NCBI GenBank assembly: GCA_963383645.1
Contig: OY726572.1
Coordinates: 28,402,792-28,466,791, forward strand
Length of the DNA stretch: 64,000 nucleotides
Source: Muscardinus avellanarius
Lineage: Eukaryota; Chordata; Mammalia; Rodentia; Gliridae
Direction of reading: 5' to 3'
How positions within the stretch are numbered: the first letter of the stretch is position 1; every line of letters begins with the position of its first letter. Below, one piece after another: positions 9,800 through 45,746 of this stretch. The notes beneath the pieces were generated by a model. That model searched no databases. It had not been told where the DNA came from and was given only the letters and a program-made list of their open reading frames with translations. The translations under genes were made by a program, and so were the position numbers.

Positions 9800-10083
9800 T
9801 TTTTTTTCTCATTCAAACATTTATAAATTTCAAAACAATGAATCAAATCATTAGATTAAAACTTGGGCACTTCAAAGAACTAGGTAGTTCCTGGAGGTAC
9901 CAGTTGTCTATTAAGCACCTTGATTAGCAAGACAGACACTTGGTTGTTTTTCACTGATATAACTTTACATTGGTAGGTCTTGAAGGTAGATCTCCATATA
10001 TACAGACTTTTACCAGAACACATCTCTTCAGTGAACCTTTCCTAATAAAAGGCCGTCCATTCCTGTCTTCAAGGTTAGCCACT
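9800..10083 (-). mobile_element. Apparent 3' transduction carried by composite copy 1
   Basis: The element's own 3' end stops at an A/T-rich stretch near 10084-10115. The next ~275 bp are absent from copies 2-4. They end on the minus strand with TATAAA (a variant polyadenylation signal) about 15-20 nt before a terminal A-run at 9800-9807, directly against the 16-bp target duplication. This is the structure left when transcription reads past the element's own signal and the flank is carried along. Confidence 0.75.
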
Positions 10084-10460
10084 AGGTTTTATTTTATTTT
10101 TAATATATTTTTATTAGGGCATTGTAGTCAAACTTCACAATGGAATACAAGACTTATTAGGATATCCAAGTACACATAGTCCAATCAACCTTTATCCAAT
10201 CCCCATCCCACTCCCTCCCCCCTCCCTCAATCCAATGCTTGATTTAGTGTTTAACATTGATATATTTATTTATGCACATCATGTGCTTTAAAGAGATTCC
10301 ATTTTCCCCCATCCCATTCCCTCTGATTGGTCACTGTAAGTGCTCCTCCATAGGGCCCCATCTTCCATTAGGTTCTCTCCTATTACCCATTTCTTCCTAG
10401 TTTTGCATATTAAGGAGAGCACCCAATGTTTTTTCCCTGTGATATTTCTTTCTGTATGCC
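10084..10460 (-). repeat. L1-derived 3' end of composite copy 1
   Basis: Contains the minus-strand equivalents of 'gtgaccaatcagagg', 'caagcattgga' and 'gactacaatgccctaataaa'. The same segment ends copies 2, 3 and 4 and the short insertion at 61667-62046. Confidence 0.85.
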
Positions 10461-10469
10461 ACTTTGCAA

Positions 10470-12815
10470 GTTCCAATCCCACTCTTGAAGGCCCAAGCAC
10501 AGGCCTGTCCACCCAATAGACTCTGCTTCCAGCCTCACTGGCTCCAGTATCAGCCTTGTCTCATGTCAGGCTCAAATCCCAGCCTCGGGAGCACCAGCAC
10601 AAGCCTTGTCTTTAGGCTAGCTCCTATCTCAGCCTCCCTGGATCCAGCTACAGCCTCACCAAATGGCAGGCACCATTCCCGGCCTCACTGGCCCCAGCAC
10701 CAACCTCACCCCATGGCACCCTACTATCTCTACCTCCAAGGCCCCAGAAATGGTCCTGCCTCATGGCAGGCTCTGATCCCAGCCTTTCTGGCCCCAACAC
10801 TGGCCTCACCCCTCTGTAGGCTCTGATCTCTGCCTCTGAGGCCCCAGCAACGGTCCTGCCTCATGACAGGCTCTGTTCCTGGCCTTGCTGGCCCTGACAC
10901 TGCCTCACCCCTTGGCAGGTTCTGATCCCAGCCTCAGAGGCCCAGTACCAGCTTTGCCTCATGGCAGGCCCCAATCCCGGCCTCTCTGGTCCCGGCACCA
11001 GCCTTACCCCTTGGCAGGCTCTAATCCCAGCCTTGGAGGCCCCAGCACCTGCCTTGCGTCATAGCAGGCCCCAATCCTAGCCTTGCTGGCTTCGACAGCA
11101 GCCTCACCCCTCACCAGTTTTCAATCCCAGCCTCGGAGGCCCCTACACCGCCCTCACCCCTTGGCAGGCCCTGATCCCGGCCTCAGAGGCCCTAGCACCG
11201 GCCTTGCCTCATGGCAGGTTTCAATCCTGGCCTTGCTAGTCCCCACAACAGCCTCACCCCTCTCCAGTTTATAATCCCAGCCTCGGAGGCCCCAGCACCG
11301 GCCTTGCCTCATGGCCCCAATCCCGGCCACGCTGGCCCCAGCACCAGCCTTACCCCTTGGCAGGCTCTAATCCCAGCCTTGGAGGCCCCACCACTGGCCT
11401 CACCCCTCGGCAGGCTCTGATCCCGACCTTGGGGCCCCAGCACCAGCCTCACCCCTTGGCAGGCTATGATTCCAGCCTCAGAGGCTCAAGCACTGGCATT
11501 GCCTAATGGCAGGATTCAATCCTGGCCTTGCTGGCCCTGGCACTGGCCTCACCCCTCGCCAGTTTCCGATCCTGGCCTCAGAGGCCCCAGCACCACCCTT
11601 GTCTCACAGCAGGCCCAGATCCCGGCCTTGCTGGCCCCGACAGCGGCCTCACCCCTTGACAGGCTCTGATCCCAGCCTCTGAAGCCCCAGCACTGGCCTT
11701 GCCTCACAGCAGGCTCTGATCCCGGCCTTGAAGGCCCCAGCACCGGCTTCACCCCTTGGCATGTTCTGATCCTGGCATCAGAGGCCCCAGCAAGAGCCTC
11801 GCCTCACGGGAGGCCCTAATCCTAGTCTTGTTGGCTCCAGCACCGGCCTCACCCTTGGCCCACCCCTATCCTGGCCTCGGAGGCCCCAGTACCAGCCTTG
11901 CCTCATGGCAGGCCCCGATCCCGGCCTCGCTGGCCCTGGCACTAGCCTCAACCCTTGGCTGGCTTCAGTCCTTGCCTCAGAGGCTCCAGCACCAGCCTTG
12001 TCTCACAGCAGGCCCAGATCCCGGCCTTGCTGGCCCTGGCACTGGCCTCACCCCTTGTCAGTTTCCGATCCCAGCCTTGGAGGCCCTAGCACCACCCTTA
12101 TCTCACAGCAGGCCCAAATCCCAGCCTTGCTGGCCCTGACAGCAGCCTCACCATTTGGCAAGCTCCAATTGCAGCCTACAAGGCCCCAGTGCTGGCCTTG
12201 CCTCATGGCTAGCTCTGATCCCAGCCTCAGAGGCCCCTGCACCAGCCTCAGTCCTCAGCAGGCCCTGATCCTGGTCTCAGAAGCCCCAGCACCAGCCTTG
12301 CCTCATGGCAGGCCCCAATCCTGGACTCACTGGCCCCGGCACCGGCCTCAACCCTCAGCAGGCTCTGATTCAGGCCTTGGAGGCCCCAGCACCAGCCTCA
12401 CTCCTTGGCAGGCTATGATCCCAGCCTCGGAGGCCCCAGCACCGGCCTTGCCTCATGGCAGGCCCAGATCCTGGCCTTGCTGGCCCTGACAGAGGCCTCA
12501 CCCCTTGACAGGCTCTGATCCTGGCCTCAGAGGCCCCAGCACCACCCTTGTCTCACAGCAGACCCCTTGGCAGGCTCTGATTCCAGACTCTGAAGCCCCA
12601 GCACTGGCCTTTCCTCATGGCAGGCTCTGATCTTGGCCTTGCTGGGCCTGGCACTGGGCTCACCAGTCGACAGGCTCTGATCCCAGCCTCAGAGGCCCCA
12701 ACACAGGCCTTGTCTTATGACAGGCTCTGATCCCAGCCTCACTGGTCCCAGCAATGGTCTGGCCACTCAGCAGGCTCCTATCCTGGCCTCTGAGGCCTCA
12801 CCTCACCTCTGGCCT
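10470..12815 (-). repeat. VNTR of 50-bp units, composite copy 1 (~47 units)
   Basis: GC-rich tandem array. A representative unit on the plus strand is CAGGCTCTGATCCCAGCCTC, continuing GGAGGCCCCAGCACCGGCCT and TGCCTCATGG, 50 bp in all. Two unit types alternate: one has (A/G)GAGGCCCCAGCAC and ends TGCCTCATGG, the other has GCTGGCCC and ends CACCCCTTGG. The higher-order period is therefore about 100 bp. Stop codons are rare, so several ORFs of 60-190 codons arise; they have no coding support. Confidence 0.95.
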
Positions 12816-12897
12816 TACTGTCTTGCTGTGCATTGGGCTCTGTTCTCTGCCACTATGAGCAGGTCACCTACAGATGTTCCCTTTTATCTGCCCCCCC

Positions 12898-13140
12898 CCT
12901 TTTTTTTGGTGGTACTGGGGTCCCTGGAAACCCTTCCACCTCCAGGATATATATATATATATATATATATATATATATATATATATATATATATATATAT
13001 ATTTTTTTTTTTTTTCTTTTTTTAAATTTGGAAACAGGGTCTTTCAAGCCAGCAAGGCTGGCCTCAAGCCTGTGAGATCCTCCTGTCTCCGCCTCCCTAG
13101 CACAGGGATTACAAGTGTGTGCCACCACTCCTGGTGTTCC
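12898..13140 (-). repeat. B1-dID SINE with TA microsatellite inside composite copy 1
   Basis: The dID half (12898-12948) and the B1 half (about 13020-13140) are separated by a pure TA tract (about 12949-13001) plus a T-run. The same SINE sits at the same place in copies 2-4, so it is a fixed part of the composite element. Confidence 0.88.
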
Positions 13141-44404: not shown

Positions 44405-44640
44405 AAGAATGCCGGGTATGATTTCACACATTTGTAATCCTAGCGCTTGGGAGGTGGAGGCAGGAGAATTGTGCTGGTTTGAGGCAAGACTCGTTGGCTT
44501 AAGAGACCCTGTTTCCAAATAAAAATAGACATTAATAAAAAAAAGTCAGGTCCCCAGGAGTGTAGCCCAGAGGTAGAAGGGTTTCCAGGAACCCCAGTAC
44601 CACCAAAAAAAAAAAAAAAAAAAGAAAGAAAAAAGAAAGA
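44405..44640 (+). repeat. B1-dID SINE inside composite copy 4
   Basis: B1 ('gccgggtatgatttcacaca'), a short A-rich linker without microsatellite expansion, dID ('ggtccccaggagtgtagccc'), then an A-run with GAAA repeats. Confidence 0.9.
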
Positions 44641-44719
44641 AAGAAAGAAAAAAAAAGGGAATATCTGTAGATGATCTGCTCATAGTAACAGAGACCAGAG
44701 CCTGATGCACAGCAAGACC

Positions 44720-45395
44720 AGTGCCAGGGACTCTGAGGCCAGGATCGGAGCCCGCTGAGGGGTGAGGCCGAGGACAGGGCCAATGAGGCCGGGATCAGAG
44801 CCTACCATTAGGCAAGGCCGGTGCTTGGGCCTCCAAGGCCAGGATCAGAGCCTGCCAAGGTGTTAGGTTAGTGCCAGGGCCACCAAGGCTGGGATGGGAG
44901 TCTGTCCTGAGGCAAGGCCGGTGCTGGGACCCACAAGACTGGGATCGGAGCCTGCCGAGCAGTTAGGCTGGTGCCGGGACCAGCGAGGCTGGGATCGGAG
45001 CCCGCAATGAGGCAAAGCCAGTGCTGGTGCCTCGGAGGCCAGGATTGGAGCCTGCCCAGGGGTGAGGCTGGTGCTGGGGACAGTAATGCTGGGCTCAGAG
45101 CCTGCTGTGAGGCAAGGCTGGTGCAGGGGCCTCAAAGCCCAGGATTGGAGCCTGCCAAGGGGTTAGGCTGGTGCTGGGGCCAGCAAGGCTGGGATTGCAG
45201 CCTGCAGTGGGACAAGGCTGGTGCTGGGGCCTCAGGCCGGGATTGGAGCCTGCCAAGGGATGAGGCCAGTGCTGGGGCCAGGGAGGCCAGGATCAGAGCC
45301 CGCCATGAGGCAAGGCCAGTGCTGGAGCCAGCAAGGCCAGAATTAGAGTCTGCCAGGTGGCTAGGCCAGTGCCGTGGCCTTCAAGAGTGGGATCA
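44720..45395 (+). repeat. VNTR of 50-bp units, composite copy 4 (~13 units)
   Basis: Same two alternating unit types as in the other copies. This is the shortest array in the window. Confidence 0.92.
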
Positions 45396-45399
45396 AACT

Positions 45400-45746
45400 T
45401 GCAATGAGGCATACACAGAGAAATATCACAGAAAATAAAAAGCCAGATGATTCCCCTAATATGCAAAAAGTAGGAAGAAATATGTAATAGGAGGAGATCT
45501 AGTTGAAGAAAGGGCCCTATAGAGGAGCATTTAAGGTGACCAATCAGAGGGGATGGGATGGGGGTGGATCGAATCTCTTTAAAACTCATGATGTATGTAA
45601 ACAAATATATCAAAGTTAATCACCAATCAAGCATGGGATCGAGGGAGAGGGAGGGAATAAGATGGGGATTGGATAAAAACTAATTGGATGATGTGCCCTT
45701 GTATATCCTCACAAGTCTTGTATTCCATTGTGATGTATGACTACAG
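45400..45746 (+). repeat. L1-derived 3' end of composite copy 4
   Basis: From 'gcatacacagagaaatatca' to 'gatgtatgactacagtgca'. Matches 36730-37050 and 61667-62000. Confidence 0.85.

Follow-up and report, generated by a model that had tools for sequence, protein, structure and literature searches.

A dispersed composite retroelement family joining a SINE, a GC-rich tandem array and an L1 3' end in a rodent genome

Composite retrotransposons built around a variable number tandem repeat (VNTR) are called specific to hominoid primates in the portions of PMC4432496 and PMC7353768 that were available to us. According to the same portion of PMC4432496, the VNTR unit of SVA measures 30–50 bp and the 3' domain of gibbon LAVA includes L1ME, an L1-derived piece; an excerpt of PMC12593883 puts the average SVA 3' transduction at 347 bp. 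In the open-licence literature we found no VNTR composite from a rodent. The sole 'SVA-like' mention in the accessible text of PMC4982230 concerns primates, and 'squirrel' and 'Sciur' are absent from the accessible text of PMC13174262, on chimeric L1 insertions. Here we analyse a 64-kb stretch of Muscardinus avellanarius DNA (contig OY726572.1, positions 28,402,792–28,466,791; the window), which contains several copies of a composite element. We propose, with a probability of about 0.9, that they belong to a multi-copy, non-autonomous VNTR composite retrotransposon family that is moved by L1 in trans and is convergent with SVA and LAVA.

Self-comparison of the window and direct reading reveal four long related loci, two per strand. 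Copies A (9784..14619, both target-site duplications included) and B (18133..22703) lie on the minus strand, and copies C (34054..37060, 5'-truncated) and D (43271..45752) on the plus strand. In the sense of the element, each reads 5' domain, monomers headed by AAGATGGC, module B, a short interspersed element (SINE) of what we take to be the B1-dID type, a short tether, a GC-rich array of 50-bp units and an L1-like end. Tandem Repeats Finder (TRF) called the 50-bp array in all four loci independently of the self-comparison. An earlier note on this DNA had claimed four loci with one module order and one relative orientation, and these observations bear it out. A fifth, 5'-truncated piece with the L1-end module is located at 61652..62051 on the plus strand (piece ~61660–62015), between 15-bp duplications that differ at one position (AAAAACAAACAGTTC / AAAACCAAACAGTTC).

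The family is dispersed. We searched the window's own assembly (G000; 2,497,143,478 bases, 104 contigs) with two queries. Query 1, window positions 13000–13400, takes in the greater part of the SINE and a portion of module B, and these two modules are therefore partly selected; the VNTR, the L1 end and the 5' domain lie outside it and are hence unselected. It gave 41 matches on 18 contigs, with the best 40 of 4092 first-look candidates scored; one match is the window itself, one is a 40-bp second piece, and the others show 84–87% identity. Monomers, module B, SINE and VNTR follow in this order in 20/20 loci fetched with query 1. The tether was called in 19 of these and the L1 end in 19; 19 also have an upstream 5' domain, the exception being the truncated L021. 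Query 2, the 5' start of copy D, produced 40 matches from 1440 first-look candidates. All three query-2 loci fetched whole are composites, and sampling 1–2 kb downstream recovered SINE and VNTR in 18 of 20. Neither the 4092 nor the 1440 candidates are confirmed copies. Retention of the order in 20/20 and 18/20 loci rules out a chance neighbourhood of unrelated repeats. Two extra copies occur in 127,131 bases of flanking DNA; extrapolation leads to tens of thousands, a figure of little weight given two events in non-random flanks. One pattern used to look for a related contaminant in IMG/VR matched 0 stretches. Many dispersed copies with shared structure and target duplications, by which the earlier note would recognise a real family, are thus present in this genome, and we conclude that the family is real, dispersed and of composite, L1 type.

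The copies bear the features of non-autonomous L1-type elements, namely A-tailed insertions between target-site duplications and no reverse transcriptase of their own; the longest ATG-initiated open reading frames (ORFs) span 80–153 aa in the five copies examined. A-rich tails and 5' truncation are seen among the copies. Copy A is inserted in a SINE, between 16-bp duplications (AGAAATTTAGTGAGAG) at 14619–14604 and 9799–9784, and when its two flanks are joined, other SINE copies align with them right across the junction. Its L1 end and second duplication are separated by ~0.28 kb of DNA (~10085–9811) that ends in an A-run and has no other match in the window, which is the pattern of a 3' transduction. 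Copy C interrupts the linker of a different SINE, of B1-dID type. Elsewhere in the genome, L030 has an 18-bp and L029 an 11-bp duplication, each with one mismatch. L030 also harbors a nested second composite, antisense and truncated within the VNTR, which sits in module B with its own exact 15-bp duplication; hence, the VNTR and the L1 end were mobilised as one. Across 19 loci, the best alignment of the 5' flank to the 3' flank reached a score of ≥12 in 10, as compared to 3 of 52 mispaired controls; one of the ten, L015, is a low-complexity match. Nick sites at the 14 loci with a duplication resemble those of the L1 endonuclease: they averaged 4.93 matches out of 6 to TT/AAAA, whereas random positions within these loci averaged 1.82 (maximum over 2000 draws, 2.93). 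Because we set the nick site by hand at the start of the A-run, we made a second control from random A-run starts, which averaged 2.61 (highest 3.57).

The 3' module derives from an L1 end. The window also contains two L1 derivatives that carry ORF1, and their ends match the last ~120–165 bp of the family; in one of them, ORF1 matches LINE-1 ORF1 domains and structures. L018 and L012 have longer L1 ends to which nearly the whole module can be aligned. Translation of the stretch upstream in L018 yields the C-terminus of an ORF2 protein; its match to LINE-1 ORF2 structures extends to their last residue (E 7e-5). Together, these data place the start of the module ~20 codons before the ORF2 stop. 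The module therefore comprises the last ~20 codons of L1 ORF2, located by alignment because the frame has decayed, and the L1 3' untranslated region (UTR), with an AATAAA-like signal and an A tail, confirming that the element ends in an L1 3' segment as previously suggested. A tree built on the last ~150 bp sets the window's five family ends apart from five other L1 ends, with a branch support of 0.999. We considered whether an ORF2-like stretch at 63620–63910 marks an L1 fused to the 3' end of the family and rejected this, since it belongs to an older L1 interrupted by a 5'-truncated insert. This insert (63913–64000 and beyond, L032) is a ~0.3-kb 5'-truncated L1 3' end within the older ORF2; inspection by eye shows a short duplication around GAAAGATGG.

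The internal SINE consists of a B1-like head and an ID-like second part; the hosts of B1-dID SINEs are presumably squirrels and their relatives, and the SINE type accordingly points to a squirrel-like rodent. The window contains two free-standing copies of the same type, both bounded by a long duplication. One interrupts the 5' domain of copy B (22240..22457, minus strand; AAGAAAAGCAATTTCAG), and the other lies at 23121..23380 on the plus strand (SINE ~23136–23362), flanked by ATTACA[T/G]CCCATATAGCC at 23121 and 23363. The SINE was therefore probably added to the progenitor of the family. We do not retain the internal SINE as an insertion with an ancestral duplication of its own, since its flanks share only A-rich sequence and GAAC, which is suggestive only. 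The earlier idea that the element was built from a B1-dID SINE holds for the SINE part, which matches the free-standing type; the AAGATGGC monomer array and two alternative 5' ends argue that the element is not simply SINE-built.

Copies A and C represent one type and B and D the other. A and C are 84% identical over 1640 bp upstream of the VNTR, and identities between window copies range from ~70 to 84%. B and D share ~230 bp of extra first sequence that starts at an AAGATGGC motif; A and C lack it and begin in the 5' domain. The alternative 5' ends are a GGTTAAGATGGC start, which we take to be YY1-like, and a GC-rich array of 40–47-bp units. Ten 5' ends read between duplication and monomers place the start of first-type copies in this second GC-rich array, whose units TRF found in 8 of 20 loci scanned. 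When the 5' start of copy D was the query, 37 of 39 non-self matches began at query positions 4–19, near GGTTAAGATGGC, in a sample of best-scoring matches that favors complete ends. Module B is homologous to the end of the 5' domain (71–78% over 80–147 bp) and each is followed by an A-rich tract; judged from sequence, the 5' half thus looks internally duplicated.

The VNTR spans 650–2359 bp in 23 measurable copies (the 2080 bp of copy B include a solo long terminal repeat, LTR) and is shorter in L030 and L031, at ~0.47 and 0.52 kb. Exactly 50 bp is the size of 395 of the 576 anchor gaps in 27 arrays, and these arrays are 62% GC. The units are of two types, and 394 of 533 steps (74%) pass from one type to the other, versus 52% in shuffled arrays (highest of 1000, 60%), forming 100-bp pairs. 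Strict G-quadruplex motifs, two in each of 2 of the 27 arrays, are hence not general. The VNTR of L019 (G000:C6:7374600-7384500) exceeds 5.7 kb, far longer than in other measured copies, and runs off the piece before the L1 end. In the first type, copies diverge from their group consensus at non-CpG positions by a mean of 4.0% in module B (22 copies) and 4.3% in the 3' end (21 copies); in the second, the values are 7.1% and 5.8%, respectively (5 copies each). These figures lean young, as the fetched copies are best matches. Over all copies, module distances co-vary (module B versus 3' end, r = 0.90, p = 0.0005; other four pairs, r 0.56–0.85, p 0.002 or less).

Several observations weigh against an L1-moved composite family. 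We found no clear duplication at B, C or L031, and that of D is weak and of low complexity; 9 of the 19 loci in the flank-match test score at or below the control level. Within the first type module distances show no significant co-variation (module B versus 3' end, r = 0.27, p = 0.09). The overall pattern fits modules that travel together and a star-like first type, with no evidence for linkage within that type. Two of 20 sampled 5' starts have no SINE and VNTR downstream: L037 ends inside module B, and L048 has no element there. One extra copy (L025 1–1159 with L055) runs from monomers to VNTR and L1 end, omitting module B, SINE, and tether; it is an internal deletion. Finally, loci were chosen as best matches and their proportions are not genome-wide.

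Four copies in 64 kb is a dense arrangement, as if the loci were segmental duplications or a local tandem family, an origin that the earlier note had named as one of two findings that would refute its proposal. Pairwise comparison of the eight 2-kb flanks revealed only repeat-like matches of 68–199 bp, apart from one shared stretch that is the same physical DNA between A and B, which argues that the loci are not segmental duplications. In addition, A and C reside in different SINE copies, the copies are only ~70–84% identical, and related loci are spread over 18 contigs. We give a duplication origin almost no credence. It is easier to imagine, although still somewhat improbable, that the family is real and already a named Dfam or Repbase repeat, or is split there into L1, SINE, and unknown parts. 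Automated repeat libraries would be expected to pick up so abundant a family, and the literature cited at the outset speaks against this by offering no rodent VNTR composite and, in the portions available, confining such elements to hominoids.

An alternative view of the composite backbone is that of a gutted L1, a history we consider unlikely. Some L1 lineage would have supplied its 5' UTR, now the AAGATGGC monomers, together with its own 3' end; both ORFs would have been lost, the VNTR would have grown in the gap and the SINE would be a later passenger, in a manner reminiscent of ORF1-only HAL1. Such a history accords with a 3' module that starts within the end of ORF2 and extends across the 3' UTR, with the position of AAGATGGC near the 5' end of B-type copies and of ORF1-bearing L1 derivatives alike, and with the presence of ORF1-only derivatives in the same genome. 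The window contains two such HAL1-like elements, at 55065–57830 (plus strand) and 32810–29865 (minus strand), each with an L1-type 5' end, ORF1 and an L1 3' end but no ORF2. The former has an open ORF1 (55856–56773, 305 aa from ATG) and a duplication of ~16–18 bp. HAL1-like copies are also present in L031 and L053, and further copies are 94–97% identical over ORF1. However, the best match between the 5' modules of the family and the 5' UTRs of the two window elements (E 0.002 over 61 bp) is unconvincing, so we rejected the modules as 5' UTRs of these elements. None of the START-type loci recovered with query 2 (3 whole, 20 sampled) leads into ORF1 of the same element; an older L1 lineage could still fit. 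No ORF1 match lies inside the composite element in L009–L031, and the ORF1 matches in L021, L023, L031, and L053 fall outside it. L037 was rejected as an L1 bearing the 5' modules because its ORF1 element is a separate insertion with its own duplication.

At the level of modules, copy A (minus strand) comprises the 5' domain (14603–14260), monomers (~14255–13560), module B (13535–13160), SINE (~13140–12900), tether (~12890–12830), VNTR (~12830–10480) and L1 end (~10480–10086). Copy B, also on the minus strand, begins with its start sequence (22703–22470), resumes with the 5' domain beyond the free SINE (~22239–21870), and continues through the monomers, module B (21400–21035), a SINE with a GA/CT repeat inside (~21022–20640), the tether (20620–20560), VNTR (~20560–18490) and L1 end (~18485–18133). 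The solo LTR in its VNTR (19304–18863, minus strand, ~442 bp, TGTCGGGG...GATGACA) has a GCAAGG duplication at both sides. Copy C (plus strand) retains the tail of the 5' domain (34054–34235), followed by monomers (~34245–34960), module B (~34970–35345), SINE (~35363–35604), tether (35618–35675), VNTR (~35680–36715) and L1 end (36718–37053). In copy D (plus strand), the start (43271–43500) and 5' domain (43520–43830) precede a stray B1-like piece (43845–43893) and a shortened monomer array; module B (44020–44395), SINE (44405–44612), tether (44658–44715), VNTR (~44716–45395) and L1 end (45398–45752) complete the element. A separate LTR element at 4925–8566 has two ~255-bp LTRs that are 99.2% identical, a CTTAT flanking duplication and a GC-rich interior.

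We favor the L1-moved composite family. Its RNA would start at the 5' end of the element, where RNA polymerase II and YY1 may act; L1 ORF2 protein, supplied in trans by a presumed L1 helper, would then copy this RNA into new sites by target-primed reverse transcription. The VNTR or the SINE could contribute to mobilisation. The chances seem about even that VNTR composites arose independently in a rodent lineage, with a GC-rich, higher-order tandem array between a SINE and an L1 tail having evolved at least twice in mammals, the 5' end having been exchanged at least once (AAGATGGC start versus second GC-rich array), and the VNTR being a recurrent, selected module that helps an RNA to exploit L1. 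If so, such composite elements are no peculiarity of hominoids. If such elements had a second, non-primate origin, the parts that VNTR, SINE and 5' end play in mobilisation and silencing, a matter linked until now to SVA and LAVA, could be tested by comparison. Squirrel-type genomes would also possess a class of length-variable, GC-rich elements whose copies annotation may at present break up into pieces of SINE, tandem repeat and L1.

The closest relatives in design differ from the family in their parts. HAL1 elements are likewise non-autonomous and end in an L1 3' end, and two of this type lie in the window; HAL1 keeps ORF1, whereas no ORF1 match is seen in the family, which has a SINE and a VNTR. 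The internal SINE resembles B1-dID SINEs in its B1-like head and ID-like part, but it is one module of an element of ~2.5 to >5 kb that has a 5' end of its own and an L1 3' end. Like SVA (SINE-R-VNTR-Alu), the family is a non-autonomous composite with a SINE-derived part, L1-type duplications and a central GC-rich VNTR of similar unit size (50 bp, within the range cited above from part of PMC4432496), and copy A carries a 3' transduction of ~0.28 kb, to be set beside the mean in the excerpt of PMC12593883. Unlike SVA, it lives in a rodent; its SINE, of B1-dID type, precedes the VNTR, an L1 3' end stands in place of SINE-R, which we did not see, and its 5' end is formed by AAGATGGC monomers or a second GC-rich array. 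Our reading of the 5' ends of B, D, and ten fetched copies revealed no CT-hexameric repeat/Alu-like region of the kind that the consulted part of PMC4432496 gives for SVA, LAVA, PVA, and FVA. With LAVA (L1-Alu-VNTR-Alu) the family shares a VNTR and an L1-derived 3' piece; its own piece, in contrast, is the L1 terminus in complete form, ORF2 tail and 3' UTR included, and the SINE and 5' half differ. The 3' domains listed for the four primate composites in the same portion of PMC4432496 are SINE-R, L1ME, PTGR2, and FRAM; that of the family is a complete L1 3' end. The earlier proposal of an independently assembled SVA/LAVA analogue moved by L1 is supported by the dispersed, ordered copies, their duplications and their L1 3' end, and the family looks like an independent counterpart of ape SVA and LAVA.

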